Origin: Prorocentrum cordatum
Taxonomy: Eukaryota; Sar; Dinophyceae; Prorocentrales; Prorocentraceae
Length of the DNA stretch: 64,000 nt
Assembly (NCBI GenBank): GCA_963575745.1
Contig: CAUYUJ010000706.1
Location: 46,346 to 110,345 of the forward strand
Direction: 5' to 3'
Shown here: piece after piece, positions 7,082 through 49,272 of the stretch
Numbering within the stretch: position 1 is the first letter of the stretch
Layout: each line of letters begins with the position of its first letter
Translations under genes and position numbers: made by a program
Notes under the pieces: model-generated
The model's database searches: none
The model's input: only the letters and a program-made list of their open reading frames with translations
What the model was told of the DNA's origin: nothing

Positions 7082-7431
7082 ACGGACAGGGGGATGCGTA
7101 CAGATGCGCACGTGTAGCCTGGCACCGCATCCATAGAGGCATCATGTACGGGTTCGGAGTAGATGGGGTCGGAGGACCGCGCCGCATCGCCGATACATCG
7201 GCGATGTATCGGCGATGCATCGGCGACACACCAGCGATGCATCGTCGACGTGGGCGATGCATCGGCGACGTCGGCGTGAAGCACATCGGGCTCCACATCG
7301 AGCCGCATCGTCGATGCATCGGCGACGCGGCGCGATCCTCCGACCCCATCTACTCCGACCCCATCTGCGAGGCCTGGAGACGGACAGGGGGATGCGCACA
7401 CATGCGCACGTGAAGCCTGGCACCGCATCCA
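7082..7431. repeat. 52-bp direct repeats flanking an inverted-repeat element
   Basis: 7082-7133 and 7380-7431 match at 49 of 52 positions (both begin ACGGACAGGGGGATGCG and end GGCACCGCATCCA), 298 bp apart. They bracket the inverted-repeat element at 7154-7358, so the whole is either a partial tandem duplication or an insertion flanked by unusually long duplications. Confidence 0.8.
7154..7358. mobile_element. Foldback/MITE-like element, CGATGCATCGG family, copy 1
   Basis: The left end TCGGAGTAGATGGGGTCGG and its continuation GAGGACCGCGCCGC are the reverse complement of the right end (GCGGCGCGATCCTC, then CCGACCCCATCTACTCCGA) with one or two mismatches. The interior is packed with overlapping CGATGCATCGGCGA palindromes. 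It encodes nothing. A diverged second copy lies at 49,082-49,272. Non-autonomous and class unknown. Confidence 0.8.
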
Positions 7432-27544: not shown

Positions 27545-28505
27545 TCAGAACGGGCTGTGGTCGTCGATGTCGTTGCTGAAGTACGAGTACGACTTGGAGA
27601 ACGGGTTGGGCATCCTGTTCTGGCGCTGGGCCACTGGCGAGGCTGCTGCCGACGTTGCCGAAGTTGCTGTCGAGGCCGCCGCCGCGGGCGTCGGGGCCGC
27701 CGCGGCGGGCGCCTGGGCCGCGGCCTTGGGCGCCGCGGGAGGCGTCTGGACCACTGGCTTGCTGTCCGACTTCCCGTGCTCCACGATGACGTGCTCGGGC
27801 AGCTCAGCGGCCTCACCGCCCGCTTGGGTGATCTCGACCTCGTCGTCCCCAGCCTCGGTCGCCATCTCCTCGGATGCCCCTGCAGGTCGCTTGCTCGTCT
27901 TCGCGATTTTGCCATGTCCCTTGTCGACGCTGGCGTCCGCCGCCGCAGGGCGCTTCCTCGAAGTGAGCTCCGCAAATGCCTCCTCCTCGGGCTCGCTCTC
28001 CGGGGCGCTGTCTGTGGCTTCCTGCTGCTCGTCAGAGTCGTCAGAGCGCTCGGCTGGCTCGCCATCCGTGTCGTCGTCATCGACCTTGCTGGGCTTGGCC
28101 TTGGCCTTGGCCTTGTGTGTCGCCGCCTTGGCCTTCGCTTTGGCCTTGCCCTTCGCCTTGGCCTTGCCCTTGCCCTTCGCCTCGAGTTCGGTGGGCTCGT
28201 CGTCGTCCGCGCCCTCCTTGGCGAGGCCCTTCAGGAAGTCCGCCTTCTTGGACTCCATCTCGGGTTTGTCGTGCTTGTTCTCAGCGTAGCCCGCCGCGAG
28301 CCCGACGGCGAAGTCCTTCGCTTTCTGCTTGCACTCTTCAGGGGGGCCCAGGAGCTGAAGCCGTTGCTGGCCGCCCTCTTTGATCTGCAGCCAGACCCCG
28401 CGCGTCTCGCGGTTCACCCAAGCGACCGCGATGCCCTTGCCATTCGGCCCCTTCTGTCTAAACTCCTCGTTGCCAGAGGTCGGCTTGTCTAGCTGCTCCT
28501 CGCTC
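27545..28505 (-). CDS. 3' part of acidic/lysine-rich host nuclear-type protein
   Basis: The minus frame enters from the LINE junction as GTSEEQLDKPTSGNEEF, then AVAWVNRETRGVWLQIKEGG and QRLQLLGPPEECKQKAKDFA, a KGKAKAKGKAKAKAKA repeat, an acidic Ser/Asp/Glu region with RKRPAAADAS (a bipartite-like basic patch), an Ala/Pro linker and PFSKSYSYFSNDIDDHSPF before TGA at 27,545. The lysine/alanine repeat and basic patches suggest a nuclear, nucleic-acid-associated protein, but that is inference. The 5' part of the gene is missing in this window: either the LINE cut it, or the next exon is more than 15 kb away. Confidence 0.6.
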
Positions 28506-28551
28506 GTGCCCAAAAAACGACAACTACGTCGGTACCGAGCTCGCCGTCCCC

Positions 28552-30528
28552 GTGCTGAAGCGTCACCCCAAGGCGCCCAAAGTGGTACACACGCACGTCC
28601 CCGTGACCGTGTACCAGCTGGGCACCAAGGAAGTCGCCTGCACGGAAAAAGTAGCCGTCGCCACCATCGATCCTGCCGACCACGTATGCTGGATTCGGGT
28701 GACCATACATGAAACCGAAGCCATCGCCGCAGTCCCCTCCATGCATCAGGCCTTCGAGGATCAGTTCTCGGGAGGTGCCCCCGTGAACGGTGGTCCACGC
28801 GCCAAGGGTCCTTTCCGAAGGGACTCCGCTCCACAGGACAAGGCGCGCCAAAACCAAAAGCACAGGGAGTCCAAGAAAGACGCTCGCCGCCAGGAGCTCG
28901 ATAGTCAGCTCCAGGACACCTTCAAGGCCCTCTTCCACGGCAACTTTAAAGCCGTCACCATCCTCGAACCCTGCAAAAGCCTAGGCAGGTATGGATCGGG
29001 CGTCGGAAAGAGGTCCCTGGCTGCCACCTTCGGCGTCAGTCTTCAAGCGGTTGACAAGGTCTTGGCGGGTTCAGGGCAACTCGGCGCCACCTACGACCTC
29101 AGCAACGTAGGTGCAGACGAGCCCACTGCAGACAAGTACCAGACCGTGTGGTTCCCTGAGGACCAGCCCATCACGATGGCAGATGCGTTCCAGAAGTCGG
29201 TGGACTTCAAGGCCCTAGGAGTCGTCAGGCACGGCAAGTCAGGCTTATTGGGGATCCGTGTTGCACGAGGGTCAGACGCCGCCAAGGCTGCTGCCGTCAG
29301 CATCCGTGGCTGTGAAGCCACCCTCGCCAAGACGCGATACCGCATCACTGGCATTGCGGCACGCCACGCCACGCTGACCCAGCTTGCTAAGACTCTCACG
29401 GGCCCGTCCGTCAAATGGGACTGTGAGGTCTACCACACCGCCTGGGACCCAGCCACTTCGGCTCAGTTTGCCTTAGTGCGCGCCCATCGTCCCCCACCCA
29501 CATATACGGTACAGGTCGCAGGGTGCCCCATCCCGTGGAGCATCACCGAGGCCCCGTTGGCTGAGGTGGTGCCGAAGAGGGACAACGTTACCATTGTCAC
29601 CCCTACCACTATCACAGAGCCTGTGACGCCGCCAGCCCGTGGTGGCGGCTTCAGCCCCGCCACGGGCACACTCCTAACCAAAGCGGCCCAGAGCCCTTAC
29701 CTCCACGACCTCATGACTGCCACGCCCAAAGGCAAGGGCGTCGCACCGCTCCCGATCCCCAAGGAGGAGCCTCTAGCCAAGCGCCACCGATCCTCCAGTG
29801 GGAAACGCGACGCCACGCCGCACGCAAGATCACACGGCGCCCCAGGCCGCAGCTCCTCTGCACCCCCGCACGGCACGGATGGAGCTGCCGAGCAGACGGC
29901 CGTCCAAGGACCAGGTGGTCATGACCCGCAACTTGGCACGGTGGCGGCTGAAGGCGGGGGCCACACGGAAGGGGACGCTGCCACAGCCGCCGAGGTACCA
30001 GGCGACGCTGACGACGTCGAGATCCTCTCATCAGGGGATGAATTCAGCGTGGCATCTCGCGAACTGAACACCCTCGGCGAACGCTTCGCAACGGCCCCTA
30101 AACTGTCAGATGCCGCCACGACCCGCATCCAACACATGGAACAACAGCACGAGCTGCTTGCCAACACGGTGGATAACATGCAGGTTCAGCTTGCGGGCGT
30201 TCTCTCATCCCAGGCCACACTCACGGAGCACGTTTCAGGTTTGGAACGAGGGCTTGCCACCGTCGTCACTCAGCAACAGACGGCAACTACCGAAGCTGCT
30301 GCACTGCGTGGCGACATCCAGGCCCTCCTCGGGCACCTCACGGGGGGCACCATCCACCTGCCACAGGTGGCCACCCTCGAAACAAAAAAGGAGGAAGCTG
30401 CATCAGTTGCCGATCCCGTGGCTGTCTGCGGGTGGATTGACCAGCCAGGCCAGGTCACCCCAGGGACGGGGCCCCCAGGGGCTGACAAAGGCAAAGACAA
30501 GGGTCGGGCCACTCAGGAACCCTATTGA
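28552..30528 (+). CDS. LINE ORF1, RNA-binding-type protein with C-terminal coiled coil
   Basis: 658 codons open from a GTG. The first in-frame ATG is codon 64 (28,741), and the frame stays open back to 28,462, so the true start is probably lost by 5' truncation. The N-terminal half (VPVTVYQLGTKEVACTEK, AVDKVLAGSGQLGATYDLS, ALGVVRHGKSGLLGIRVARG) looks globular. The middle is Pro/Ser/Arg-rich and disordered, with AKRHRSSSGKR as a possible nuclear signal. Residues about 515-600 (IQHMEQQHELLANTVDNMQ onward) form a coiled coil, as in many LINE ORF1 trimers. It ends KGKDKGRATQEPY. The function by position is nucleic-acid chaperone or RNP assembly, with no sequence-level family match by eye. Hairpin 1 of the GGCT family lies at 29,637-29,665. 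Confidence 0.7.
   Translation: MLKRHPKAPKVVHTHVPVTVYQLGTKEVACTEKVAVATIDPADHVCWIRVTIHETEAIAAVPSMHQAFEDQFSGGAPVNGGPRAKGPFRRDSAPQDKARQNQKHRESKKDARRQELDSQLQDTFKALFHGNFKAVTILEPCKSLGRYGSGVGKRSLAATFGVSLQAVDKVLAGSGQLGATYDLSNVGADEPTADKYQTVWFPEDQPITMADAFQKSVDFKALGVVRHGKSGLLGIRVARGSDAAKAAAVSIRGCEATLAKTRYRITGIAARHATLTQLAKTLTGPSVKWDCEVYHTAWDPATSAQFALVRAHRPPPTYTVQVAGCPIPWSITEAPLAEVVPKRDNVTIVTPTTITEPVTPPARGGGFSPATGTLLTKAAQSPYLHDLMTATPKGKGVAPLPIPKEEPLAKRHRSSSGKRDATPHARSHGAPGRSSSAPPHGTDGAAEQTAVQGPGGHDPQLGTVAAEGGGHTEGDAATAAEVPGDADDVEILSSGDEFSVASRELNTLGERFATAPKLSDAATTRIQHMEQQHELLANTVDNMQVQLAGVLSSQATLTEHVSGLERGLATVVTQQQTATTEAAALRGDIQALLGHLTGGTIHLPQVATLETKKEEAASVADPVAVCGWIDQPGQVTPGTGPPGADKGKDKGRATQEPY
29637..29665 (+). 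repeat. GGCT hairpin 1
   Basis: Outer stem CCGTGGTGG/CCGCCACGG (9 pairs, one T-G wobble), unpaired C, apical GGCT/AGCC, loop TC. Encodes GGFSPA in ORF1. Confidence 0.85.
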
Positions 30529-30699
30529 AGGTGCCTCAGAGAGCCTGCCTCAGCCCTCCGAGGAAGCGCCTTCAGAGGCATCTCTTCTCTCTTCGCGTCG
30601 TATCTCTTTCTTGTCATATCATGTCAGTTTTGGCAGCAGCACGAGCAAGCTATCTGGTGTAGGGACACCTGTCATCTTGCTGTGGGTGTGTTTGTTGCA

Positions 30700-31089
30700 A
30701 TGTACATGAGCATGCAGGGGTATCTGAGGATGCGTGCTGACATGCAGCTTTTGGCTCATCGCTCGCGCCGCCCGCCAGGCCTCGCCATCATGTGGCGCCT
30801 TGCCTGCAGCCTGGCCCTCCCCTCGCTCGCTGGAGCACACCCGTCTTCAGGCGGTGCGCCCCAGCATGGAGGTGAGGTTCTCCTGCGACACGCTGAACGT
30901 GGGACCCTTTTCTACCTCTACGATGACAGCATCTACAAGTACGATCACTGCACCATTTTGGACCCGATCGTGAACAGCACCGTTGCCGCGGGTCCGTGCG
31001 GCATAGGCCAGGCACACAGTGGCGGCTTCAGCCCCGCTGTTGTGCCCCGCTATTGCCCTACGGGTCTCACCACTCCCCCTGTGCGCTAG
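30700..31089 (+). CDS. Short ORF between LINE ORF1 and ORF2, signal-peptide-like
   Basis: From the ATG at 30,700 the frame runs 129 codons. MWRLACSLALPSLAGAHP looks like a signal peptide with a small-residue cleavage site. The remainder (TLFYLYDDSIYKYDHCTILD, IVNSTVAAGPCGIG) has two cysteines and one N-glycosylation-type NST. It ends at 31,089 and overlaps hairpin 2 and the upstream in-frame part of ORF2. It may be a real small secreted or membrane protein of the element, or simply open leader sequence. No homolog recognised. Confidence 0.3.
   Translation: MYMSMQGYLRMRADMQLLAHRSRRPPGLAIMWRLACSLALPSLAGAHPSSGGAPQHGGEVLLRHAERGTLFYLYDDSIYKYDHCTILDPIVNSTVAAGPCGIGQAHSGGFSPAVVPRYCPTGLTTPPVR
31013..31044 (+). 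repeat. GGCT hairpin 2
   Basis: CACACAGTGG pairs with CCGCTGT-T-GTG (10 pairs, one wobble, one bulged T), unpaired C, GGCT/AGCC, loop TC. Lies between ORF1 and the ORF2 ATG. Confidence 0.8.
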
Positions 31090-31126
31090 GGGCGAACCCG
31101 AGGAGGACCCTGCTTTCTGGCACCTG

Positions 31127-34100
31127 ATGATGATCCGCGCCCGGCTCATACCGTGTGCTGCGGCGTGGGCACCAGGTGAGGACAACCAGGACATGTTCTG
31201 GGCATGGCTCGAGGACTGCGTCCCGTACATCCTGGCGACGCTTCATCTGCCACAGTACGATCACCTCTTTCAGGAGGATTCTGAGGACACAACCGACGCC
31301 CTGCGTCAGCGCACCGCGGTCGACATGTGCGAGGACATCTGGCACAGAGCGGGCCCCGACAGGCAGCGCACCAACCGCAACCTCACTCGTATCCAGAGCA
31401 GCCGCGAGTACGCCACCCGCTACTTTGGCCTCCTTCTGGAATACCAGGGCGCTCGTGCCACGCTCGTCGGTCCTGAGGCTTTCACGGCACCTTTGCCGCC
31501 ATACCTCTCACGGGCCCATGCTCTGCTGCCAAGAGGCCTCCCTCCACCCGACCAAGACGCCATGGCGTACCTCGCCGACGTGATCCTGCACCAACCGCCA
31601 GACATGCTGCCGCTCGTCGAGGCGGAGCTCGCCGCGGCGCCGATGGACGGCACCGATCAGGCCGCAGATGATCCCGTATCATGGCTGCTACAGCACATCG
31701 CGGCCAGCGATATCGGCAACATATCCATGGACTCGTTCCACGCGTCGGACGATAGCCAGGACGGCATCGATACCCAGGATCGAGACGGCACGACACCACC
31801 AGGCGACTCGGCCCAGCGCGACCGCGACAGTGAACCCTACTTTGGGCACACCTCGTTGCACAGCAGTCCGCCCCACAACTCAGCTCAAGCCGACCCCGGC
31901 GCACAGCTCAACGACGCTGAAGGCGTCACTGCCGCTGACGCGACAAGCCATTCCACTGCGTCGCCAGCTCATGCCAGCCCGTGCAGTGGCGGCTTCAGCC
32001 CCGCTGCACCACTGGCTAGACCTGGACATCCCCAGACCGCAGGTGGCAGCACCACGCCCTTCACCTCTGTACACCGTGACAACGTGACTGACTCCAACCC
32101 CAGTGCCATTGGCCACTGGCAGGCCGACATCGACAACGACCCCATCGATGATGAGTACCCAGATGCCAGCGGTTCCCACGAGCCCCAGCACAGCGCAGCG
32201 GCATCACGACATTGTGGCTGCCTCATCTGCCTCTTTGTGGCCACGTACGCCATCGCGATAGCAATGCCGTACAAGGACCAGATCGATGGGTACTTGCCGA
32301 CACCGAGCCGAGACCCCAGCTACCGACAACGACGACGACGCAAAGCGACGGCACCAGGCCCATCGGTGTCCACCACATCCCGACGCAAAACGACATACAA
32401 TGTCACGTCCACATTGTGGGCCACTCTCAAATGGACCAGCGTCAAACTCAGAGATAGCGTCTCGGGCGGAGCCACTGCAGTCGGGGTCGGCCTCGGGGGT
32501 GTCCTGAAATGGGCCAGCGGCAAGCTAGGGGCTATTGCCACGGGTGGAGTCGTGTGTGGTCTTCTACTCGTCGGTGCCAAACTTCTTGCCCAGGGAGCTG
32601 TCGGACACGTAGGAGCCCGCATCTGTGCGCGGGCCCTGGACTCATCCACAGCCCAGTGGTGCCTCCGCTGTTGCCAACCGAGCAGGAGGCCGCGGGACGA
32701 GGCCACATACAAAATGCCGTGCACGCTCGCCGACGAACACGACGACCAGCATGTGCACGCACTCCGACATCCGCTGCTACAGGAACACTACGCCGCAGCA
32801 GTTGCCGCCGCAGTCGCCGATGTCACTACCGCCACCACCGCCGCCATCGTCGAAGTCACTGCCGCCGTATCGCGAGCCTCGTCTGTCACACCAAGATCGA
32901 CCAGCCCGTCTCCACGAGACGGCTCCAAGAGCGGCGCGGCATTCGGTAACCTACCGACTAACGAGGATGCCACAGCACACGGCAGCGACACCGAGGCAAG
33001 GGAAACGCGTGAGCGCACCCACGATAGCCCGTGGTCCATCTTCCGACATGCTGACGCTCGTGGTTCCTCCCCCGACGCGGACACCCAACCACCACGACGG
33101 CGAGCACGCTATGCATCACCCGACAGGCCCCAGGCGCCTTCAGGCCCTGGTATGCCTTACACAGCCCTCAAGCCACCGACACGCAACTTACGCAACACCA
33201 TCCAGCGCGACCCAGCGGTCCCCGTGCCGCCGAAGAGCATACTTAACGCCCTGTATCAAAACGGCTTTGCGCTAGGAAACAGTGGCGTGTCTACAGAGGA
33301 CATCAAAGACGCTCTGCGACTCCACGACCATCCTCGATTTACTCATGATCCAACACTCCAAGCGCTGGGGCCGTGGACGGACATCATGCAGAGGCCACCG
33401 AACCGCCTCACTTGGGTGCTGGAAGACTCGGGCGGGAACTCAGGCGAGACAATCTTCCCATACCTCACGTGGGACCTCCGCCAACCCACCACCGACGCGC
33501 CCACTGTCTTCTGGCATGGGACCCGCGGCGACCTTGCGGCCCGTCTTGCTGCCAGTGGAGGGCACCTCTTGCCAGGTCCCCGCCGTGAAGCGAAGGGCCG
33601 AACTGGCACCAACGTTGGCCGCACGTACGCGAGCGTGCACCCTTCGCTGGCCGCGTGGTACGCAATGCCGCCCCACCCGCCCTACAGTCTTGAAGACGAC
33701 ACCCTCGCGTGGGGACCCATCGCACTCTGGATGTGCGAGGCCACCCAACCACCGCGCGGGGAAAACAGGCACAACTTCGTGAAAGGGGAGGCCCACGGAG
33801 CGCGCCTCATTTACCCTCGGGTCCTGAGCCTCCTCATCCGCATGGACTGGTGTGCCCCCACAGAAGCTGCTTCCAGGTGCCGTGCCCTTCCACACGCCTA
33901 TGGCATGGGCGACTGCGCGCACGCCCTCCACATCGCTGGCTACGATCATCCAGATCTCCGTGAGGCGGCTGAAGCTCACGACCAGGAAGCTAGCACCAGG
34001 CGCAGACCAGCCATCGCGGCAGCGTGGCCACCGCCGCAGGCACTATACTCGCCAGAGGCAGCGCGAGTATGGGCCAAACAGCACTACGACACGGAAGCAG

Positions 34101-37100
34101 CCACCAGGGATGACCCTAACCAGCCCCGCCCACGCGTCTCGCTTCACATGCTCCAGCTGGACCCGAAACCACTCATCGACCTGGTGTACACTGGCTTGCA
34201 AGCTGTCCCCGTGCGGGGGCACCCTGACGCACGCGGGTCGCGCCCCAGCGGCTCCAGCCCTGGGGCCGCGTCGGGCCCACCACGCACGTACAAGTCAGGC
34301 ACAGCCCTGGCGCACAGTCCAGACCGCTCATCGACGTCATCTGGAGCCGACGAACGCCGTACGCCTTCCCTCATCAGCGCGGCCGCCGCCCTCGCCCGAG
34401 GCCGTGCCCGCCCACGACGATCTGCCTCTCGCTCGTCACGACAGAGTGACGGGAACTCCACCTCAGACAACAGTGGCATCGAGACGTGGGAGCACATTGT
34501 GACGGAAGAGGAGCCGACTGCCTACCACGTCCTCGCCTACCACGTCCGTGATGTGCGGACCCGTGTCAATGCCCCTGGCATCGAGGTCTGGCTTGACCCT
34601 GGTGATCACCACGATGGTGCCTACTTACCGTGGGGGACGACAGTCATGGGCCACCGCGTTATTGACCCTGCGGTGGCGGGGCGGGACGGCTGGGTCATCC
34701 TCCACCACGACCACGGCGACACCACTACTAAGCTCTGGGCACCGACCCAAGTCCACGTCAAAGCGGACGACACCTGGCGCACCGTCATGGTACCAGCGGA
34801 CATGGGGCCCCAGTGGATCAGGTGCCATGCCGAGGACGCTCGCCTCCCCGCCGAGGTTGTCCGCACTACAGGCCAATCCTGGTTTGCTGACGTCTGGCCC
34901 TTGTGGGATCGCCCGCGACCCCACCCAGACGACCCAGGCACAAATGAGCATGCGCTCCCGCCTTTACCAGGACGCTGGTCTTGCCTACAGTGTCGATTCC
35001 AATGCTGTCAGTACTGTGCGGCTCGCCGCAACACGCAGCTCGGCACCTCGGGCCAACCAACGTGCCCAGACTGCGGCCGCAGCGGACTGCGTACACTCAT
35101 GGACTGGTCCACGGACTACTCGTGCAACAGTTGGACGTGTGCATACAGCACCAACAACAGGGACTCCGACACATGCTGCCTGTCCAGCAGGTGCCCCCAT
35201 CCCCCCAGGCCACACAACCTGCTCGACGTCCGTGCCACAGGGATGCCGCCGCACATCCTTGCCCGCCAATTCGGCAACGCGCCAGCCCTCCACGACCTTA
35301 AGGAACCCCCCCGAGCGCCTTCAGGCCCCGGGGGGGAACCTCCACAACCAGGGCAAGCAGGCTACCAGGGTCAATGGTACTTCCCACCGCAGCCGCGGCG
35401 CGTCCCCAGGCAGGGACTGCCTGACGGCACAAGGCGGCCACCTGGATTCACAGGAACGGGGATGCCCGAAGAACCTTCCCCCGACCAACCGCTTTGGAGG
35501 GAAGGCTACGTGCTCTTCAGTCCCCACCAGGCCCTCAAGGAGGAATTCACCTTCAACAAGACGGTCCGCCGACCCTACTCCCTAGCCATTACCAACATGT
35601 ACAGGGATCGTGTCACGGTCAGGACCGTCTGCGAGTCGATCGCCGAGCGCATCCACACTACCCGCACCCGCTGGCGAGATGTGGTACTGTACTGGGACGC
35701 CGAGGGTGGTCCTGGGCCTCAAGCCCTCGACTACGACATGCGACTCTGCGACGCCATGGTGAGCCGTGCCACGACCGAAGCCGAGCTAAACCACGACCGC
35801 AGCAACCGTGGTAGTTTCTGCCTCTATGGACCAGCGCACCAGCGAGCCGTCAACATCACGGCGATCTCCGAGCCGCAGAACATCGACTACATGGAGCATG
35901 TGCGGCGATACTCACCCGTAGGGGGGACCTACCCTGACCACGCCTTCGAGCACGTCTATCGGGGCTGGCAGCGGCCCGACGTGCCCACCATCCTCCCCGA
36001 CACCCGTCCCCTCTCGAGAGCCGACTGGCAGCGTCACCAACAGCACCAGCAGCGCATCCAGCAGCGGGACCAACGTGACGCAGGACAGCAGGGCACGCCA
36101 CGCTACCGCTCCCCCGCGCGAGTCCCGACAGGCGGTAACACGGCCTACGACGGGGTTGCCGCCTACTACCGTGGCCCCATAGGTGCCAGGCCCGCGGCTG
36201 CTGGAGCAGCCGCCTCCAGCTACGGCCACGCCCCCCACGCCAGGGTACACCCAGCGGTCATCGGCTACCCGCGTGCACCCGTGCAGGCCCTAAGGGCCAC
36301 CTCGCCAGTGCCAGGGTCCACGCGCGCCTGGGGCCTTTACTCAGGCCGACATGATGGCACCTCCAGCAACCAGCCCGCAGTGATAACCCCTGCGGCTTCA
36401 GCCCAGGGGGCTGCAACAAACCGTGGCAGGGCTGGGCGCCCCGAAGGATGGCGTGATGCGAACGTGCGCGCTTGGCAACCGCGCCAGCACACGCCCCCGC
36501 CAAACGTGGCTGCAGCACTGCGCCCTGCCCAGGCAAAACCTGCCCCACCTGAGCGGGAGAGGCAGCCGCTTACCCCGCTCGTCCTCACGCACATCCAGGC
36601 GCATCACAGCGCCTCCCCGCGGCACAGCGAGGGAAGCGCCCACCACGTCAGCCCCCGCCCCGACGCTGTCGACCCCGACCAGGCCACAGCCACGGCGGAG
36701 GGCGGCACAAGCGCCTCTCGCCAGCCCAGCCCATCACCCTGCGCGGCGCCGATCCGATCCCCGAGCAGGGCGGATTCCGAGCGCGCTAATGCCCAGGCGA
36801 CCTCGCCACGCGACCGCCACACGGGCGGGCGCGTCCCGCGCAGCAGGACCTGCAGCCGCCACAGTTCACGCAAGGCCCCAGGGAGCTCCACGAGCTCGCC
36901 GCCTCGCGAGACTCAGGCTGATGGCCGAGCCCCCGAAGTGGTGCCACGCTTCGGAGCCAGCGTCATCGAACCTGGCCAGGTCGACCTCGAGCCGACGCCG
37001 TCCACGGACCACGAGCCGCCGCTGCCCACCCGCGTGATCGCCCCCATCGACGAGGCGCCAACCTTCGACCCGTTCAAGAACAAGTACCGTGTCAAGAACC

Positions 37101-40100
37101 TTGTGGCGGGTTTCGGCGGTGGCTCACCGCTCTCACCTCAGAGTCGGGGCGGAGCCCCCGCCACCTCAGCTGCTGCCGCGGCAGCGGCGGCCCCGCGGGG
37201 AATCAGCCCTGTCCGCAACGTGGGCCTCACGGCAGCGGGCATGGACGAGGCCCAGCGCCAGGCCTCCGACCGTGCTGCTGGAGCTGTTCCACCAGATGCT
37301 GCTCATCAAGATACTGACGGGGCGGGCGCGCCACCGCAGGAGGGACCAGCGGTGTCGCGTGCGCAGTATATGCGCGTGCGTTGTGCCGCCGCCGCGCCTA
37401 GCCGCCGCCGCTGGTTCGCTTTTGTTTTTGTGTTCGGCAGGACGGATCGAGGAGTCGCCTCCCTCTCCCTCTGCTGCCGTCTCACCTCTCCTCCCCTCGT
37501 CCCCTACGGTACTGGAGTGAGGAGGATTTTTCGTGACATTTTTACTGACGTTTATGAACCCCCCCTGGCGCAGTGCCGACCGTGTCCCGCCTATACTTCT
37601 GGCCTGACGGCGGCTTCAGCCCCGGTCAAGCTAATCCATAGGAACGCCATGAGCTCCTACTGTGGCCAAGCCTCCTACCTGGGCGAGGGTCAGGCTGACC
37701 TTCACCGTGCGGGGCGTGCAAACCCCAGTTCCACCGATGGAGACGGGCCAGGTCGCTCCATACACCTCGTCAGCCTTAACATCACCAGTCTCTCAGCGAA
37801 TTGGCCAACCATCACCGCCCTTGGTGTCGACCACAACGCCGCAGTCATAGCACTGCAGGAGACCCGACATGCCAAGCCGACTAGACAAGCCATCGCTACC
37901 AGCGCCGCCAATCCACTCCACGGAGGATACCACGCCAGTCTTGGACCTGACCTAGATCTGGCGCGAGCCCAGCGCAGAGCTGCCCACGGCGGCACAGACC
38001 ACACCGTTGTGGGCAACACTGGCGCCTCGGGAGGGGTCGCCATCCTCTCTAAGGATGCCATTGTCGACTCCACTGTCGACGACAATGCGCCCTGCATCGC
38101 CGCCCTCAAGGCCAAGAAAAGATGGCACGAGGTCTTTCTCCCGCTCTGCACTCAACACCGCCGCAGGCGGCGACGAAACAACCACGGGCCCGCGGGGATC
38201 TACATAGCGAGCCTCTACGGGATTGCTGGAGGAGACAGCACAGCTCTTTTTCGGCTCGCTGACTGCGCCGCCGCTAGGGTCGGCTCAGCCCCCTACTTCA
38301 TCTGCATGGACGCCAATACGAACATCGACGACAATCCACACCTTCTGCACATGTTGCAGCACGGATGGTTCAACGTTGCTGAGGGCACACCAGACCACAC
38401 CATGCACACATACGGCAATATCCCTGACTGGGACCGCGTCACCAAGTGCCCCCGCACTTCGCGCATCGATTATATCATTGCCAACCAAGCGGCGCGATCC
38501 CTTGTCACCGACTTCTGCTACCTTCGCGACTTGCCAGCGAAGTCTCATGTTGGCCTGCAGGTCACGCTTGACCTCAGTCGCCTCGACCATACGGCCCGAC
38601 GTCTTCTTGCCCCCACGCCCTACCCTCCCGACGATGGAGCTCATGAGGGTCACGAGCTGCAGGCACTAGGGACCCTCATCGCTGGGCGATATCAGGACCG
38701 CATGGAACAGGCCGACACACGCGACGACGTGGAGCGCATGTTCGCCCTGGCTAACGAGGCCAGTCATGAGTACCATCTCACCCGTCTGCGCGACCTGCCA
38801 CCTCCACCGCCCGACCACCCAAAAAAGAAGCCCCCCACCATGCACGGGCTCACGCCCACGTTCGAAGATCGACCAGTTGTCCCCCGCGCCTTCCCCACCT
38901 ACGGAGCTTCCACGATACACATGAACCGACTGCGCAAGCTCCATCGGCAACTCTGTGAGCTCCGTTTCATCGGACAGCACCATCATTTGGATTGCCGTGC
39001 TATCCCGCCGTACCTCGCGCAGCGCATCGACTGCACGTGGACCGCGGCCCGCCTCTTATGCCACAAGCTGCGCCCCACGGTTCTCCTAGACTTCCCCGAG
39101 GCCTGGACCCCCGACGAGCCAGTGCCTCACGGAGAGCACCTTGACGTTTTGATCCAACACCTCGACTTGGAGCTGGCGCGACGTGCGAACCGTGCCAAAG
39201 CTGAACGCATCAAGATATGGGCTGAGGGCGTCCGCGAGCCAAGCGGGCGAAAGGCGGCCATATACGCACGGGCTGCTGACAGCTCGCCCACGGCGTATCT
39301 CCGCACGCCTACCACACCTGACGATACGCAACTCCACTGCGACACCAACGCCTTTAAACCTGACGAAGCTTGCACGGACGACAGCGACGCTGACACCGAA
39401 GCTGGCGGCTTCAGCCCCAGCGACGGTAGTTCGCCCGACACGGACAGCGACGAAGACCACACTCGTGAACCACCACCTGCGCAAGTCCCCGACATCCTCC
39501 CTGCCAACGCCATTGTTGCTAACACCAAGGACATGCTGAAGCTCATGGTCGACACCTGGGAGCCCATCTTGGGCAGGTACCGTGCACGTGCGGGACATGA
39601 CGCCGAAGCCATGCCGACGTGGGCCGACTTCTACGACGAGTACCGACAGGAGCTGCCTACGCCATCACCAGCTACCCCTTTCCACCTCACCGACGACCAA
39701 CTCATCCACTTCATTCGCACCCGTTCACCGCGCCGCGCGGGGGGACTGGACGGCTGGACTACTAAGGAGGCTAAGGAGTTACCCGACGACATTCTTCGCC
39801 TCTTCGCCAGCGTCCTACGCGCTATGCAACGCACTGGCACCATCCCAGAACCCCTCCTCCACGTGCCAAACCCGTGCCTCCGAAAAGGCCGAGGCGAACT
39901 CCCAACGGACCAACGACTTCTCTCGGTGCTTTCCGTTTGGATGTATGCGTGGGAAGCGCCAGCTTACCGCAGCCTCACGGACTGGCGGAAAGGATGGACC
40001 CACGCCACGAGTTTTGGCGCTGTCCCCAAAGCTACCATTGGGGACGTCAGCACCTCTCTTGCCCTGCGCATCGAACACGCCAGGGCCTTACTCCTTCCCT

Positions 40101-41812
40101 TAGCTGGAGCTGCCCTGGACCGACAGAAGTGTTTCGACTACCTCATCACGGACATCTGCCTTAACCTTGCGCTTCACGCGGGGTGTCCCCAAGACATCGT
40201 TACTGTCCGCAGAAACTTCTACAGTCGCCACAAACGCTACATCCGCATGAACGGTGCGTACTCTAAGGAACTGGCCAGGACTAACGGTCACCTCCAGGGA
40301 AGCTCTTGGTCCCTGGACGACATTAAGCTGCTCATGTGTGTGTGGACCAAGAGACAGCATCGATACGTTCCGCGATCACTCAGCACTACCTTTGTTGACG
40401 ACAGCAACTCCACTACTCACACCGCGCCTGAGTTGCAGAAATCTCTTGATGAAACCGCCAAGTTTGATCGATTTTCTGGTCAACGCATTCATCCTGGCAA
40501 AGTGGCGGGGTGGGCGCTCACCGACGAGCTTCACGCCGCCGTTACCCAGCTCACTCTGGCGGAACGGCCCTTACGCGTGGTCGACTCCTTTAAGCTCGTC
40601 GGGAGTTACATCAACGCCGAGGCAGCGCCGGCTCCAGCCGCGCTTAACCTCACGGCCACCGCTGACGCCCGTGTTCGCAGGGCGACTAGTCGCCTGCCGC
40701 GCATTGGCAAGCTCCCATCACCGATGCTTATTAAGGCGCGGCACGCCCGTTCCCTTGCTGCCAGCGTCTGTACCACGGGCACCGACATTCAAGCCCCATC
40801 AGGCCCCGTCAAAACTGCCTACAACCATGCCCTTAAGGCGGCTATCCGCCCCAAGGGAAACAGGTGGGTCGAGTTTTGGACTCTCATGGCCGTGTGCGTC
40901 CCAGGACACGCCCTGGAGATTGACGCCATTATGCAGCGTGAAGTCTTCCTGTGTCTGCGGCGACAGGTTAACCGCGACGCTACTCTCTGCGGTCTCGTCA
41001 GGGATCTCCAACACCATGTCCAGACCCTTTTCGGGGGAGGACCTGTAGGACGACTTGTCCAGACGCTTCAGCAGCTCCGTTGGACCTGGCCCACATTTGG
41101 CATCATGTACGACGACTGGGGCTGTCAGATCAGTTGGCTGAACCTACCCCAAAACGCCTTCCTTCACATGCTGCGAGCCTCACAACGCAGAGCCTTTCTG
41201 AGAAAAATCAAGCCACGGCGTCATGACCTTGGACACCTGGCCTCTGTCAGACAGGGCCTCGACCTCTTCGCCAGCACGTGGCTCGCCCGACGAAAGGAGC
41301 AGCCAAATGCAACGCATGGCAGCTGGCGCTCCTCCTTAACTACCTGTCGGGCGGGGACCACACCCAACAGCGACGATCCCGATCAAACACGTCCGCTGAC
41401 CCCAGCCCCATCTGCCGATACTGCGACGAGGAAGAGGAAACTCAGGAGCACACTGTTCGCGACTGCAAGTGCTGGGCCCGAGAAAGAGTCCCTCTCACCA
41501 CCCTCATCAGTGACGAGCAGTGGGCCCGTCTTCCGCCGCACACAAGACACTGCGGGCTCTTCGATGAAGACCCAGCCCTCCTCGACCTGCAGGCCGACCT
41601 CGCGAGGGACCCGCTACCACAGCCCATACCGCGGCCCCCACCTGAGGGAGATCCTGCGGCTTCAGCCCAGGACTCCTACACCACCTACCTTGACCATGAC
41701 ACTGGTTGGACATGGGTCTACGCTGCCACGGACGGTGCATGCACCAACCAAGCCATCCCATTGCTTGCACGAGCGGGCTACGGCGTCTACTACGGCATCG
41801 ACCACCGCATGA
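31127..41812 (+). CDS. LINE ORF2: accessory region, endonuclease, reverse transcriptase
   Basis: First ATG at 31,127 (the frame is open from 31,019), about 3,560 residues uninterrupted. Residues about 1-2190 are an unusual N-terminal region: two hydrophobic segments (CLICLFVATYAIAIAMPY; GGVVCGLLLVGAKLLAQGAV), a WHGTRGDLAARL...GRTYASVHPSLAAWYA block at about 795-850 resembling ADP-ribosyltransferase folds, and a cysteine-rich block (WSCLQCRFQCCQYC...CPDCG...CCLSSRCP) at about 1280-1365. The endonuclease follows at about 2215-2480 with N2218 (LNITSL), E2245 (LQETRH), D2395 (CMDANTN), R-IDY (SRIDYII) and H2474 (SHVGLQ). Reverse transcriptase at about 2860-3200 has GGLDGW, D2998 (LDRQKCFDYL), QGSSWS in place of QGDP, and catalytic FVDD at 3089-3092. 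After about codon 3380 the frame departs from the family and homology continues in the +1-shifted ORF at 41,278. Confidence 0.85.
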   Translation: MMIRARLIPCAAAWAPGEDNQDMFWAWLEDCVPYILATLHLPQYDHLFQEDSEDTTDALRQRTAVDMCEDIWHRAGPDRQRTNRNLTRIQSSREYATRYFGLLLEYQGARATLVGPEAFTAPLPPYLSRAHALLPRGLPPPDQDAMAYLADVILHQPPDMLPLVEAELAAAPMDGTDQAADDPVSWLLQHIAASDIGNISMDSFHASDDSQDGIDTQDRDGTTPPGDSAQRDRDSEPYFGHTSLHSSPPHNSAQADPGAQLNDAEGVTAADATSHSTASPAHASPCSGGFSPAAPLARPGHPQTAGGSTTPFTSVHRDNVTDSNPSAIGHWQADIDNDPIDDEYPDASGSHEPQHSAAASRHCGCLICLFVATYAIAIAMPYKDQIDGYLPTPSRDPSYRQRRRRKATAPGPSVSTTSRRKTTYNVTSTLWATLKWTSVKLRDSVSGGATAVGVGLGGVLKWASGKLGAIATGGVVCGLLLVGAKLLAQGAVGHVGARICARALDSSTAQWCLRCCQPSRRPRDEATYKMPCTLADEHDDQHVHALRHPLLQEHYAAAVAAAVADVTTATTAAIVEVTAAVSRASSVTPRSTSPSPRDGSKSGAAFGNLPTNEDATAHGSDTEARETRERTHDSPWSIFRHADARGSSPDADTQPPRRRARYASPDRPQAPSGPGMPYTALKPPTRNLRNTIQRDPAVPVPPKSILNALYQNGFALGNSGVSTEDIKDALRLHDHPRFTHDPTLQALGPWTDIMQRPPNRLTWVLEDSGGNSGETIFPYLTWDLRQPTTDAPTVFWHGTRGDLAARLAASGGHLLPGPRREAKGRTGTNVGRTYASVHPSLAAWYAMPPHPPYSLEDDTLAWGPIALWMCEATQPPRGENRHNFVKGEAHGARLIYPRVLSLLIRMDWCAPTEAASRCRALPHAYGMGDCAHALHIAGYDHPDLREAAEAHDQEASTRRRPAIAAAWPPPQALYSPEAARVWAKQHYDTEAATRDDPNQPRPRVSLHMLQLDPKPLIDLVYTGLQAVPVRGHPDARGSRPSGSSPGAASGPPRTYKSGTALAHSPDRSSTSSGADERRTPSLISAAAALARGRARPRRSASRSSRQSDGNSTSDNSGIETWEHIVTEEEPTAYHVLAYHVRDVRTRVNAPGIEVWLDPGDHHDGAYLPWGTTVMGHRVIDPAVAGRDGWVILHHDHGDTTTKLWAPTQVHVKADDTWRTVMVPADMGPQWIRCHAEDARLPAEVVRTTGQSWFADVWPLWDRPRPHPDDPGTNEHALPPLPGRWSCLQCRFQCCQYCAARRNTQLGTSGQPTCPDCGRSGLRTLMDWSTDYSCNSWTCAYSTNNRDSDTCCLSSRCPHPPRPHNLLDVRATGMPPHILARQFGNAPALHDLKEPPRAPSGPGGEPPQPGQAGYQGQWYFPPQPRRVPRQGLPDGTRRPPGFTGTGMPEEPSPDQPLWREGYVLFSPHQALKEEFTFNKTVRRPYSLAITNMYRDRVTVRTVCESIAERIHTTRTRWRDVVLYWDAEGGPGPQALDYDMRLCDAMVSRATTEAELNHDRSNRGSFCLYGPAHQRAVNITAISEPQNIDYMEHVRRYSPVGGTYPDHAFEHVYRGWQRPDVPTILPDTRPLSRADWQRHQQHQQRIQQRDQRDAGQQGTPRYRSPARVPTGGNTAYDGVAAYYRGPIGARPAAAGAAASSYGHAPHARVHPAVIGYPRAPVQALRATSPVPGSTRAWGLYSGRHDGTSSNQPAVITPAASAQGAATNRGRAGRPEGWRDANVRAWQPRQHTPPPNVAAALRPAQAKPAPPERERQPLTPLVLTHIQAHHSASPRHSEGSAHHVSPRPDAVDPDQATATAEGGTSASRQPSPSPCAAPIRSPSRADSERANAQATSPRDRHTGGRVPRSRTCSRHSSRKAPGSSTSSPPRETQADGRAPEVVPRFGASVIEPGQVDLEPTPSTDHEPPLPTRVIAPIDEAPTFDPFKNKYRVKNLVAGFGGGSPLSPQSRGGAPATSAAAAAAAAPRGISPVRNVGLTAAGMDEAQRQASDRAAGAVPPDAAHQDTDGAGAPPQEGPAVSRAQYMRVRCAAAAPSRRRWFAFVFVFGRTDRGVASLSLCCRLTSPPLVPYGTGVRRIFRDIFTDVYEPPLAQCRPCPAYTSGLTAASAPVKLIHRNAMSSYCGQASYLGEGQADLHRAGRANPSSTDGDGPGRSIHLVSLNITSLSANWPTITALGVDHNAAVIALQETRHAKPTRQAIATSAANPLHGGYHASLGPDLDLARAQRRAAHGGTDHTVVGNTGASGGVAILSKDAIVDSTVDDNAPCIAALKAKKRWHEVFLPLCTQHRRRRRRNNHGPAGIYIASLYGIAGGDSTALFRLADCAAARVGSAPYFICMDANTNIDDNPHLLHMLQHGWFNVAEGTPDHTMHTYGNIPDWDRVTKCPRTSRIDYIIANQAARSLVTDFCYLRDLPAKSHVGLQVTLDLSRLDHTARRLLAPTPYPPDDGAHEGHELQALGTLIAGRYQDRMEQADTRDDVERMFALANEASHEYHLTRLRDLPPPPPDHPKKKPPTMHGLTPTFEDRPVVPRAFPTYGASTIHMNRLRKLHRQLCELRFIGQHHHLDCRAIPPYLAQRIDCTWTAARLLCHKLRPTVLLDFPEAWTPDEPVPHGEHLDVLIQHLDLELARRANRAKAERIKIWAEGVREPSGRKAAIYARAADSSPTAYLRTPTTPDDTQLHCDTNAFKPDEACTDDSDADTEAGGFSPSDGSSPDTDSDEDHTREPPPAQVPDILPANAIVANTKDMLKLMVDTWEPILGRYRARAGHDAEAMPTWADFYDEYRQELPTPSPATPFHLTDDQLIHFIRTRSPRRAGGLDGWTTKEAKELPDDILRLFASVLRAMQRTGTIPEPLLHVPNPCLRKGRGELPTDQRLLSVLSVWMYAWEAPAYRSLTDWRKGWTHATSFGAVPKATIGDVSTSLALRIEHARALLLPLAGAALDRQKCFDYLITDICLNLALHAGCPQDIVTVRRNFYSRHKRYIRMNGAYSKELARTNGHLQGSSWSLDDIKLLMCVWTKRQHRYVPRSLSTTFVDDSNSTTHTAPELQKSLDETAKFDRFSGQRIHPGKVAGWALTDELHAAVTQLTLAERPLRVVDSFKLVGSYINAEAAPAPAALNLTATADARVRRATSRLPRIGKLPSPMLIKARHARSLAASVCTTGTDIQAPSGPVKTAYNHALKAAIRPKGNRWVEFWTLMAVCVPGHALEIDAIMQREVFLCLRRQVNRDATLCGLVRDLQHHVQTLFGGGPVGRLVQTLQQLRWTWPTFGIMYDDWGCQISWLNLPQNAFLHMLRASQRRAFLRKIKPRRHDLGHLASVRQGLDLFASTWLARRKEQPNATHGSWRSSLTTCRAGTTPNSDDPDQTRPLTPAPSADTATRKRKLRSTLFATASAGPEKESLSPPSSVTSSGPVFRRTQDTAGSSMKTQPSSTCRPTSRGTRYHSPYRGPHLREILRLQPRTPTPPTLTMTLVGHGSTLPRTVHAPTKPSHCLHERATASTTASTTA
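31983..32007 (+). repeat. GGCT hairpin 3
   Basis: Outer GCAGTGG/CCGCTGC (7 pairs, one wobble), unpaired C, GGCT/AGCC, loop TC. Encodes GGFSPA in ORF2. Confidence 0.85.
33130..33150 (+). repeat. GGCT-type hairpin 4 (GCCT/AGGC variant)
   Basis: Outer CCAGG/CCTGG, unpaired C, apical GCCT/AGGC, loop TC. Encodes APSGPG. Sits just before the WHGT block. Confidence 0.8.
34243..34265 (+). repeat. GGCT hairpin 5 (CC loop)
   Basis: Outer CCCCAG/CTGGGG, unpaired C, GGCT/AGCC, loop CC. Encodes SGSSPG. Confidence 0.85.
35306..35336 (+). repeat. GGCT-type hairpin 6 (GCCT/AGGC variant)
   Basis: Outer CCCCCCCGAG/CCCGGGGGGG (one A-C mismatch), unpaired C, GCCT/AGGC, loop TC. Encodes APSGPG. Follows the cysteine-rich block. 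Confidence 0.8.
36387..36409 (+). repeat. GGCT hairpin 7
   Basis: Outer CCCCTG/CAGGGG, unpaired C, GGCT/AGCC, loop TC. Encodes AASAQG. Confidence 0.85.
37605..37628 (+). repeat. GGCT hairpin 8
   Basis: Outer TGACGG pairs with CC-G-GTCA (one extra G), unpaired C, GGCT/AGCC, loop TC. Encodes AASAPV just before the endonuclease. Confidence 0.75.
39401..39421 (+). repeat. GGCT hairpin 9
   Basis: Outer GCTGG/CCAGC, unpaired C, GGCT/AGCC, loop TC. Encodes GGFSPS between endonuclease and reverse transcriptase. Confidence 0.85.
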
Positions 41813-43479
41813 ACTACAGTGCACGCGTTCACGGCATTACGCAGAACGCACAGCTTGCGGAGACCCTCGCCATTGTCCACCTCACGGCATGTGCTGAACG
41901 GCCCGTACACGTTTTCGTGGACAACCAGGCGGTGGTTGATGGTTTCCAAAGGATCATCGACGGACCCTCACCACCGCAGGGCACGCACGTGGAGCTCTGG
42001 GAAAAGATCCACCGATGCGTCATGGCCAAGCCCAACATGTTCCGCGTCGAGAAAATCGCAAGCCACCTGGGCGACATGGGCATCGACCTCGGGCTCATCG
42101 GGCCCATCGCGGAGGAGTTAAATCGTCAGGCTGACGCCCTCGCCACAACGGCGGCACGTACTCATAACCTTCCAGACGACATTGTCGAAGCTGCCAAATC
42201 ACGACATCGCCAAGCGACCGTGCTTCATGGAGTCGCTGTCGCCATCTACGAGCGTAGACACCGTACACTCCCCCTCCCACACCGCAGGGCTGGGTTCACA
42301 ACTGCGGAACTCAACAAAATGGAACCAAATCCCCTGCTGTCTGACCAGGCACCACCCGCGGCTGGACCAGACATCCCACAGAACCCGGACGAGCTCTGGG
42401 CCGAGGCCCAACGGGCGATATTCGACGAACAGGAGGACGACCCGTTCGGTTTTGGTGGGGGCCTGGACTTCCTGGGCGACGGGCCAGCCAGCGCCAACCC
42501 TGCCCCGTCGGGTACCCGCACGGCGCCCCCGACTCCGCCATTGAGAGCGGCAGCGCACCCACATGACAACGCCGCTCATTTTCAAGACGCTGACGAACAG
42601 GAGGATGACCTGTTCAGCTTCGTTGGGGGATCGGACGCTTTGGACGACGGACCAGCCAGCGAAAACCCCGCCCCGTCGGGAAACCTCTCGATCCCTACTG
42701 CGACTCCGTCCCCGAGAGCGATATCGCCCACATACGATGATATCGGCCACCGCCAAGACGCCGACCAAGACCTGGGTGACCCCCGCGGACTGAGTGGCAT
42801 GGAGGACGCACCGCCGATACCACACGCTGCCGACCATGCCGCCCTACCGAGACGCCAACCTTCTACACGACCGACCTCAGAGCCCTTGCACGGCATCATG
42901 ACTGGTCCCACCGCGCAAACCACTCCGCCCCCCCACCGCCGGCAGCCCGCGGGGGCGGCTTCAGCCCCCCCGCAGGGTACTAACCCAGACAGGCCCTCGT
43001 GCCCCATCCACGCTTCCATCGTTGCTGAGCGAGAGGAAGCGGCTCTCCCGACCTCTCGGGGCGTGGCCCTAGCGGCTCCAGCCCTGGGGTCGCGTGTGCC
43101 CCTCCAGTCACCCTTCAAGGGTGACGGACGACAGCGTACAGGGTGCCGCACTACGCTAGTCCACCATGTGGACAGGCGTACCGAGGACCTCGCCTCTGTC
43201 TCGAGGCTCTCGGCTGCTGGCACTGAGCAGCCACCCCTCACCGACCGCGAAACCGAGCTGTCACAGGCAATGGCTGCCCTCCAGCAGAGGTGCTTAGCTC
43301 TCGCCGCGGACCTCGCCGCCGCCCAAGCTCGTCAAGGCCCTCTACTCCAGCGCCTCCACAGCGCTGGGCGAGCCTTTGCCGAGCTGCTCACGGCCTCGCC
43401 CGATGGTGCCGCGCCGTCACTCAACATCCAAGCTATGTTGTCATCGTTCCGCGGCGCTCCACCTGGTGCCCCGCGCTAA
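41278..43479 (+). CDS. LINE zinc finger and RNase H, shifted frame (continuation of ORF2)
   Basis: Coherent homology starts at about CNAWQLALLLNYLSGG (41,310). A zinc finger CRYC-x8-H-x4-C lies at residues 46-63, the same CX2CX8HX4C spacing as in the decayed LINE at 46.5 kb. RNase H: D152 (ATDGACT), E195 (LAETLAIV), D215 (VDNQAVVD) and RQADALA near 286, so the catalytic acidic residues are present. Residues about 370-733 form an acidic/proline-rich tail, with a repeated EDDPFGFGGGLDF/EDDLFSFVGGSDAL unit and a final helical heptad region (MAALQQRCLALAADLAAAQA). It stops at 43,479. ORF2 and this frame overlap from 41,278 to 41,812, so a single frameshift near 41,280-41,310 would join them. Whether it is programmed or a mutation cannot be told here. 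Confidence 0.8.
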   Translation: MARPTKGAAKCNAWQLALLLNYLSGGDHTQQRRSRSNTSADPSPICRYCDEEEETQEHTVRDCKCWARERVPLTTLISDEQWARLPPHTRHCGLFDEDPALLDLQADLARDPLPQPIPRPPPEGDPAASAQDSYTTYLDHDTGWTWVYAATDGACTNQAIPLLARAGYGVYYGIDHRMNYSARVHGITQNAQLAETLAIVHLTACAERPVHVFVDNQAVVDGFQRIIDGPSPPQGTHVELWEKIHRCVMAKPNMFRVEKIASHLGDMGIDLGLIGPIAEELNRQADALATTAARTHNLPDDIVEAAKSRHRQATVLHGVAVAIYERRHRTLPLPHRRAGFTTAELNKMEPNPLLSDQAPPAAGPDIPQNPDELWAEAQRAIFDEQEDDPFGFGGGLDFLGDGPASANPAPSGTRTAPPTPPLRAAAHPHDNAAHFQDADEQEDDLFSFVGGSDALDDGPASENPAPSGNLSIPTATPSPRAISPTYDDIGHRQDADQDLGDPRGLSGMEDAPPIPHAADHAALPRRQPSTRPTSEPLHGIMTGPTAQTTPPPHRRQPAGAASAPPQGTNPDRPSCPIHASIVAEREEAALPTSRGVALAAPALGSRVPLQSPFKGDGRQRTGCRTTLVHHVDRRTEDLASVSRLSAAGTEQPPLTDRETELSQAMAALQQRCLALAADLAAAQARQGPLLQRLHSAGRAFAELLTASPDGAAPSLNIQAMLSSFRGAPPGAPR
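41652..41672 (+). repeat. GGCT hairpin 10
   Basis: Outer TCCTG/CAGGA, unpaired C, GGCT/AGCC, loop TC. Encodes AASAQD between zinc finger and RNase H. Confidence 0.85.
42946..42977 (+). repeat. GGCT hairpin 11
   Basis: Outer CCCGCGGGGG pairs with CCCCCGC-A-GGG (10 pairs, one bulged A), unpaired C, GGCT/AGCC, loop TC. Encodes AASAPP. Confidence 0.85.
43067..43089 (+). repeat. GGCT hairpin 12 (CC loop)
   Basis: Outer CCCTAG/CTGGGG (one T-G wobble), unpaired C, GGCT/AGCC, loop CC. Encodes AAPALG. Confidence 0.85.
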
Positions 43480-43847
43480 TCTCCTCCTTTCTGCCTGCCC
43501 GTGTGTACGCGTGGCCCCGCGTCCACGGTGTCAGGGCGTGGGGGCGGGGGGTGCCCCGTCCCTGCGCGCCGCTTAGCGGCCAAGCGCCCAACTGGCGGTC
43601 TGCCAAGCCGCCTAGCCACGTGTCAGCACGTCGCCTTTCTTGTTGGGGCCTATTTCCTCACGCGGTCTGACAGGTGAGATCATCATCGTCTGTCCGCCGT
43701 CTGTAGCGTCTGTCGCACTGCGCCGGGGGATGGGTTTTTTTGTTGCCCGCCCTCGTATCTAAAGGCTGCACCGCCGCAAATAGTGCATGCGAGTTGTCGC
43801 ACCGCAGTGCGCCTCGCGGACGGACCCTGGTCCGCCTACTTGTCCGA

Positions 43848-43891
<44 letters not shown>

Positions 43892-43911
43892 GCTCGCTCC
43901 CTCTCCCCCTC
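43480..43911 (+). other. LINE 3' untranslated region, border unknown
   Basis: After the stop the sequence is GC-rich and non-coding, with no poly(A), then a CT array from about 43,850 that runs into the gap. The end of the element lies somewhere in this stretch or in the gap. Confidence 0.5.
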
Positions 43912-49081: not shown

Positions 49082-49272
49082 GTCCGAGCAGATGGGGTCG
49101 GAGAATCGCGCCGCATTGCCAATGCATCGCCATCGGCGATGCATCGGCGATGTATCGGCGACGTCGGCGATGCATCGGCGACGCCAGCGCGGAGAAAATC
49201 AGGCTTCACATTGAGCCACATCGCCGACGCATCGGCGAAACGGTGTGATCCTCTGACCCTATCTACTCCGAC
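49082..49272. mobile_element. Foldback/MITE-like element, CGATGCATCGG family, copy 2
   Basis: Left end GTCCGAGCAGATGGGGTCGG and right end ATCCTCTGACCCTATC then TACTCCGAC are inverted with several mismatches. The interior again carries CGATGCATCGGCGA palindromes, then a shared TTCACATTGAGCC/CTCCACATCGAGCC segment. More diverged than the copy at 7,154. Confidence 0.75.

Follow-up and report, generated by a model that had tools for sequence, protein, structure and literature searches.

How the protein of a long interspersed nuclear element (LINE) selects its own RNA is a standing question, to which cis preference and recognition of the 3' tail have been offered as answers. We analysed a 64,000-nucleotide stretch of the genome of the dinoflagellate Prorocentrum cordatum (contig CAUYUJ010000706.1, positions 46,346 to 110,345; hereafter the window), which holds on its plus strand a copy of a giant LINE (28508..43911). 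The sense strand of this copy carries 14 conserved predicted hairpins, each with a bulged base and a UYCA loop; it seems fairly likely that they offer one protein a series of docking sites along the LINE RNA. Two described systems come closest. In MS2, the packaging motif combines (x)xYA in the loop with an A in a 5' bulge, similar stem-loops are dispersed, and 15 signals were seen by cryo-electron microscopy, according to a review (PMC6281560). In LINEs themselves, recognition of a 3'-tail stem-loop by ORF2 proteins is the subject of two further papers (PMC4176376, PMC5135761).

The hairpins of the giant LINE have a common form: an outer stem of any sequence, one unpaired 5' base, three apical pairs (G-N-C/G-N'-C) and a UUCA or UCCA loop. 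All 14 hairpins of the window copy have C as the unpaired base, two hairpins of a partner repeat described below have A, and the middle apical pair can be G-C, C-G, U-G or U-A, with the unpaired base and the loop kept. A preliminary description of the window had reported twelve of these hairpins. All twelve are present, and their single orientation, the unpaired 5' C, the different yet complementary outer stems and the covarying apical stem stand as described. Two more, at 30843 and 40630, had been missed, and the apical part, read at that time as four pairs with a two-nucleotide loop, is better read as three pairs and a UYCA tetraloop, in line with the RNAfold prediction. Eleven matches to the GGCTYCAGCC core occur in the window, every one in the LINE and on the plus strand; the full motif with at least four outer pairs was found neither outside the LINE in the window, in agreement with the preliminary description, nor on the minus strand. 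When the window was scanned with a covariance model trained on 13 hairpins, these scored 30.6-39.7 bits; 30843 followed at 18.2 bits (E 0.1), and the match below it had E 0.41.

All 14 hairpins lie on the plus strand. Hairpins 1 (29635..29667) and 2 (30829..30865, core at 30843) both have a bulged C, followed in the first by GGC-UUCA-GCC and in the second by GUC-UUCA-GGC with its U-G middle pair; the latter, recovered by folding as well as at the low score given above, is unchanged in 9/9 aligned loci, which overlap and derive from few source copies. Hairpin 3 (31011..31046, at 31024) is the site of a compensatory change discussed below. Hairpin 4 (31981..32009) is supported by folding and the covariance model, and hairpin 8 (36387..36409) by these and a core match. 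The apical stem is flipped to GCC-UUCA-GGC in hairpin 5 (33130..33150) and also flipped in hairpin 7 (35306..35336), which has one A-C mismatch in its outer arm. The UCCA loop occurs in hairpins 6 (34242..34266, at 34250), 11 (40624..40644, at 40630) and 14 (43061..43095, at 43074), the last with a 12-bp outer arm that includes G-U pairs. Hairpin 9 (37605..37628, at 37612) has one bulged G in its outer arm, hairpin 10 (39401..39421, at 39407) lies in the linker between endonuclease and reverse transcriptase (RT), hairpin 12 (41652..41672, at 41658) occupies four codons that are missing from relatives (see below), and hairpin 13 (42949..42973, at 42957) has seven-pair arms identical to those of two partner-repeat hairpins. 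A fifteenth hairpin, with a GUC/GGC apical stem and a nine-pair arm, is present in copy C2, in a 5' part that the window copy lacks, and encodes RLQA. The hairpins thus span 29.6-43.1 kb through the open reading frames (ORFs); none was found at the 3' end of the LINE (43.1-43.9 kb), and a search of the 1.8-kb gap at 37.6-39.4 kb for a decayed hairpin gave no match on the sense strand and one weak minus-strand match at 38313.

What recalls MS2 is a long RNA with many stem-loops whose stems vary and whose loop and bulge motif is common to them, the LINE fold being a predicted one; the UYCA loop fits xxYA, the unpaired base is on the 5' side and there are about 15 sites. Unlike MS2, the LINE is nuclear and not a virus, its unpaired base is nearly always C instead of A, and three pairs separate this base from the loop, whereas the MS2 hairpin has two. 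We regard the likeness as a functional analogy and claim no kinship. As with the 3'-tail stem-loop, the hairpin is one of LINE RNA that would mark self RNA and is common to elements with the same 3' tail, but in the giant LINE it is repeated through the coding region and does not stand at the 3' end. The iron-responsive element, a protein-bound hairpin of untranslated regions, has a 5' unpaired C, a five-pair upper stem, a CAGUGN loop and a variable lower stem. The single 5' unpaired C, the short upper stem and the variable lower stem are common to both, whereas the giant LINE has three apical pairs and UYCA, and an Rfam scan of the LINE returned no family at threshold (two matches fell under their cut-offs). 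Searches of the open-licence literature listed no title or abstract opening that described an array of this kind in a LINE.

Codon shuffles exclude chance and protein coding as the source of the hairpins. Cores with a bulged C and four or more outer pairs were observed 11 times, whereas 300 synonymous-codon shuffles of the ORFs produced 0.02 on average and never more than one; for a wider motif, 1,000 shuffles gave a mean of 0.23 and a maximum of 4, again against 11 observed. The shuffled-codon simulation named earlier as a possible refutation therefore does not reproduce the hairpins, and the earlier opinion that protein selection is an insufficient explanation agrees also with the different codon phases and with the conservation of fourfold sites. 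The claim that all three frames are used needs qualification: the 13 hairpins in the open frames of the window copy use two phases, and the third appears in the 5' hairpin of the other copy (RLQA). The possibility that the hairpins at 30843 and 31024 are non-coding was ruled out, as both lie inside the open ORF2 frame of copy L244. Of the 21 LINE hairpins in which a 1-nt 5' bulge, three pairs and a tetraloop of whatever sequence stand on five or more outer pairs, 11 have the UUCA or UCCA loop. Spacing is also regular: 11 of 14 intervals measure 967 to 1,346 bases, mostly about 1,100, and among 20,000 random placements 3 or 0, depending on the tolerance, were as regular as the 13 hairpins, and 0 at both tolerances as regular as all 15, with the fifteenth placed at 28301.

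The outer stems vary in sequence and stay paired. The arms of a hairpin pair with each other to a depth of 6.4 on average, against 1.75 for arms exchanged between hairpins. Over 13 hairpins, 91.6% of the cells are paired compared with 69.4% after shuffling, double changes occur in 8 of 11 pairs, and the covariation score is 0.550 against 0.132, the observed score being reached in 0/500 shuffles; when the partner column is slid by one to three positions, pairing falls to 31-59%. Between homologous copies there is one compensatory change of the kind that the preliminary description had called for: at 31024, the window and C2 copies have an A-U pair where both C21 copies, as well as C93, have G-C. 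Predicted folding in a 300-nt context gives a mean pair probability of at least 0.7 for 11 of the 14 window hairpins.

Rates of change were compared with copies L243 and L242, which are about 89% identical to the window copy, using one locus per copy; elsewhere some loci overlap (L189-L191; L209, L210 and L244), and per-site counts are not counts of independent copies. Together they differ from the window copy at 5/231 bases within hairpins and 1,352/11,980 outside them. At fourfold sites the corresponding figures are 1/58 (1.7%) and 534/2,319 (23%; p=6e-6), and at G/C-ending fourfold sites only, 0/36 and 221/1,508 (p=0.004). Sets of GC-matched 21-base windows, drawn 20,000 times, never showed fewer than 6 differences and averaged 23.6, against 5 in the hairpins. 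Sites that differ between lineages, scored around five hairpin sites in up to 30 close copies, were 0/105 in hairpins and 70/1,329 in flanks (p=0.008). We infer that the conservation as a whole reflects selection. The core at 39407 shows no variation among the window copy and 20 fetched copies, 2 of which have a G-U in the arm. At 37612, where the window arm has its bulged G, copy L243 has a perfect GACGG/CCGTC arm. At the protein level, the endonuclease-RT linker of public-database relatives reads GGFSP (P0004, P0006), APSGP (P0007) or APIGP (P0005), which is what the core and the flipped core would encode in different phases, although P0005 would need a changed loop.

The array also turns over. 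L243 has one hairpin more, GUC-UUCA-GAC, at a place where the other aligned copies lack any; it differs from them by substitutions and without change of length. At 41658, four codons are absent, at the protein level, from seven of seven spanning relatives (P0009, P0011-P0015, P0017). In the comparison of sites for presence or absence with clean edges, which the preliminary description had proposed, 41658 may be such a site, and the L243 hairpin arose or was lost at constant length. Some hairpins share arms, 34250 with 43074 over 41 bp at 85%, 29647 with 31991 over 32 bp at 94%, and 42957 with the partner repeat over 36 bp at 92%, so some segments must be copies of others in the family; such copying does not rule out selection.

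In the 4.13 Gb searched (21,875 contigs), the 13-base core occurs 15,878 times and the reversed pattern 1,299 times. Among the first 100 places listed, 97 are clustered and three solitary (C1, C48 and C97), with one or two outer pairs at C1 and C97 and seven at C48. The latter, a solitary hairpin with the same core at C48:617862 (L272), has no match to the LINE or its partner and may be due to chance. Six stretches of divergent related LINEs, some holding part of the LINE only, have 0 hairpins in 35.8 kb of readable sequence; they are 28-52% identical to the giant LINE in endonuclease-RT and 28-32% in ORF1 where it is matched. A head-to-tail array (L241 and L267, C2:404800-415300, minus strand) places the 3' end of one LINE, a partner repeat and the 5' end of a LINE in succession, with long CT repeats as tails. 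The partner repeat, about 7 kb long, has the 3' tail of the LINE (87%) and some hairpin arms in common with it, whereas its ORFs are different and gave no protein match. The one copy seen in full has six hairpins, one of them about 100 bases past the stop of its 986-amino acid ORF. The exact 25-base form of this hairpin occurs 100 times in the genome and 0 times reversed; at eight sampled places it has the upstream flank of the partner in 8/8 and a differing downstream flank in 6/8. Two 15-base hairpin patterns matched 115 and 65 viral stretches (1.57 Mb), none of which has two hairpins of at least four outer pairs, and these matches are consequently taken as chance. The presence of the hairpins in the LINE and its partner, against six divergent stretches without them, adds to the arm covariation and to the conservation relative to fourfold and GC-matched controls in support of the idea, already advanced in the preliminary description, of a repeated nucleic acid signal.

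The giant LINE consists of ORF1 followed by a long ORF2 that carries endonuclease, RT and RNase H. The window copy, whose homology to other copies begins at 28508, is truncated at its 5' end and meets an N gap at its 3' end; its open frames, all on the plus strand, are ORF1 (28462-30528) and two ORF2 pieces (31007-41812 and 41227-43479), in a window with a GC content of 61.9%. This copy is frameshifted, whereas several others have an open frame of 4,385 amino acids; relative to L244, about 120 bases are missing at 31005-31008, which shifts the ORF2 frame, and the break lies 3-6 bases from hairpin 3. Pfam recognizes the endonuclease (6.2e-7) and RNase H (2.6e-6) in ORF2; the RT match is weak (0.017, under the Pfam cut-off), and relatives of the RT region support its identity. 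In the divergent LINE L265, ORF1, endonuclease, RT and RNase H fit within about 7 kb, without the extra coding sequence of the giant LINE. Part of this extra sequence in ORF2 (33146-34240) has no sequence match in Pfam or the PDB.

The constrained parts of the hairpin are the UYCA loop, the three pairs below it and the unpaired base, while the outer stems vary yet stay paired, and this is the pattern of a protein-binding hairpin. Because of this pattern, and because UYCA fits the MS2 loop motif, we propose that the 14 bulged hairpins are repeated docking sites for one protein, a reading to which we give somewhat better than even chances. The folded form would be RNA, to which the wobble counts (10 G-T, that is G-U, against 3 A-C) weakly point. 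One protein would read the unpaired base and the loop, the outer stem merely presenting them, and this putative binder may coat the RNA of about 15 kb, count or measure it, or mark it as belonging to the element, whose enzymes would then be assembled with it. The partner repeat would keep its hairpins because it depends on the machinery of the LINE. The binder might be encoded by the host or by the LINE, in ORF1 or in the extra coding sequence; the latter is a candidate because the hairpin-free L265 lacks it. New hairpins could come from point change and from short segments being copied, and disappear by the same routes.

Several observations weigh against the docking-site reading. Most of the covariation is between paralogous hairpins, with one orthologous double change only; the wobble excess is weak; and three of the 14 hairpins (30843, 34250 and 37612) fold poorly in the predicted 300-nt context, with low pairing probability. 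Spacing is interrupted by one gap of 1,795 bases and by two pairs whose members lie just 181 and 117 bases apart. In hairpins, private mutations too are less frequent (5/3,024 against 162/38,221, p=0.025), so that part of the conservation could be mutational. Five of the 20 fetched copies have a C-A mismatch in the arm at 39407, copy L201 has lost hairpin 5 through a 16-base deletion, and the absence of 41658 from all seven spanning relatives implies that no single hairpin need be essential across families.

A stronger form of the docking-site reading, which we put forward tentatively and hold to be rather improbable, is by analogy a virus-like self-packaging code. About 15 MS2-like hairpins, one roughly every kilobase, would bind a coat-like protein encoded by the element and condense the 15-kb RNA into a particle, and the non-autonomous repeat would have adopted the code. 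The Pfam search found no coat domain above cut-off in the LINE protein pieces scanned.

Among the other explanations, the one that survives best, although we think it unlikely, is a hairpin-forming mini-mobile element, hitchhiking in the LINE where linkers tolerate it, with units that are copied along with their arms and kept passively. The preliminary description had raised this possibility, and the common arms, the four extra codons at 41658 relative to all spanning relatives and the extra hairpin of L243 lend it some weight. Many short hairpins, some inside ORFs and some sharing arms, are also known from repetitive extragenic palindromic (REP) sequences, the palindromic elements in Rickettsia ORFs, mitochondrial double-hairpin elements and byps. 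The giant-LINE hairpins, by contrast, were found in one LINE lineage and its partner and on the sense strand only; their unpaired base and loop are strongly conserved, where a passive passenger would be expected to drift, and their turnover is partly by substitution, as in L243, and not by insertion. Moreover, the arms of most hairpins are unrelated yet complementary, and 97 of the first 100 genomic places listed (of 15,878) are clustered, C48 alone of the three solitary ones having a long stem.

We consider it less probable again that the hairpins act during reverse transcription or as single-stranded DNA, either as pause or template-switch points leading to recombination or segment loss, or as recombination sites. 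The head-to-tail arrangement of LINE copies with the partner repeat would fit such a role, as would the change of downstream flank within about 20 bases of the hairpin in six of the eight sampled partner copies. Of the three alignment breaks between the window and L242-L244, that at 31005-31008 also speaks for it, being just 3-6 bases away from hairpin 3, but the other two are more than 300 bases from any hairpin, and none of the five longer indels in these three copies falls within 20 bases of a hairpin. A pause site, furthermore, would not need an unpaired base and loop as conserved as these. Extra-helical bases recall attC sites, and the preliminary description had drawn this comparison and one with REP sequences; neither finds support, since the hairpins occur on the sense strand only and the weak wobble bias points to RNA. 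No integrase is among the Pfam matches of the LINE proteins.

Translational control, in which the hairpins would slow ribosomes between domains so that these fold in turn, seems to us decidedly doubtful. Many hairpins do lie in linker-like sequence, about 350 codons apart, and to this extent the earlier statement that they lie between domains is correct; that at 40630, however, is inside a stretch conserved with divergent LINEs (L265), those at 42957 and 43074 are only 117 bases apart, and one partner-repeat hairpin lies beyond its stop codon. A roadblock, in addition, needs no conserved unpaired base or loop sequence. Finally, the idea that the hairpins are a side effect of GC-rich coding sequence, or of selection acting on short linker peptides, is hardly credible: the recurrence of GGFSP and AASAP might speak for it, but it is refuted by the codon shuffles and contradicted by the different phases, the conserved fourfold sites and the hairpin outside the partner's long ORF.

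Some further observations concern the LINE proteins and the rest of the window. An ADP-ribosyl/KptA-like domain at 33.2-34.2 kb, an idea formed by eye, received no support from Pfam or PDB sequences, and the predicted fold of ORF1 (mean predicted local distance difference test score 46.8; a possible coiled coil and a beta-alpha-beta-beta-alpha-beta stretch) was too weak to be used. Relatives of the LINE RT were found neither in viral contigs, by RT query or RT alignment, nor in bacterial and archaeal genomes. A homologue of window 33041-33973 (P0018), filed under a metagenome-assembled genome of a Myxococcales bacterium (GY811_25535), is 99% identical to the LINE over 311 amino acids, and its 1.4-kb contig therefore looks like algal contamination. 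Outside the LINE, two distant tandem arrays (7184-7268 and 49131-49183) are built of one 11-base unit (GCATCGGCGAT and its rotation), and a 245-base tandem repeat is present at 910-1637 in three copies that are 91% alike.

As the hairpin is small and uniform, its putative binder could be fished out directly. If the docking-site reading is true, a hairpin array inside coding RNA would be another answer to the question of how a LINE chooses its own RNA, and the packaging logic of RNA viruses would have a counterpart in a retrotransposon.

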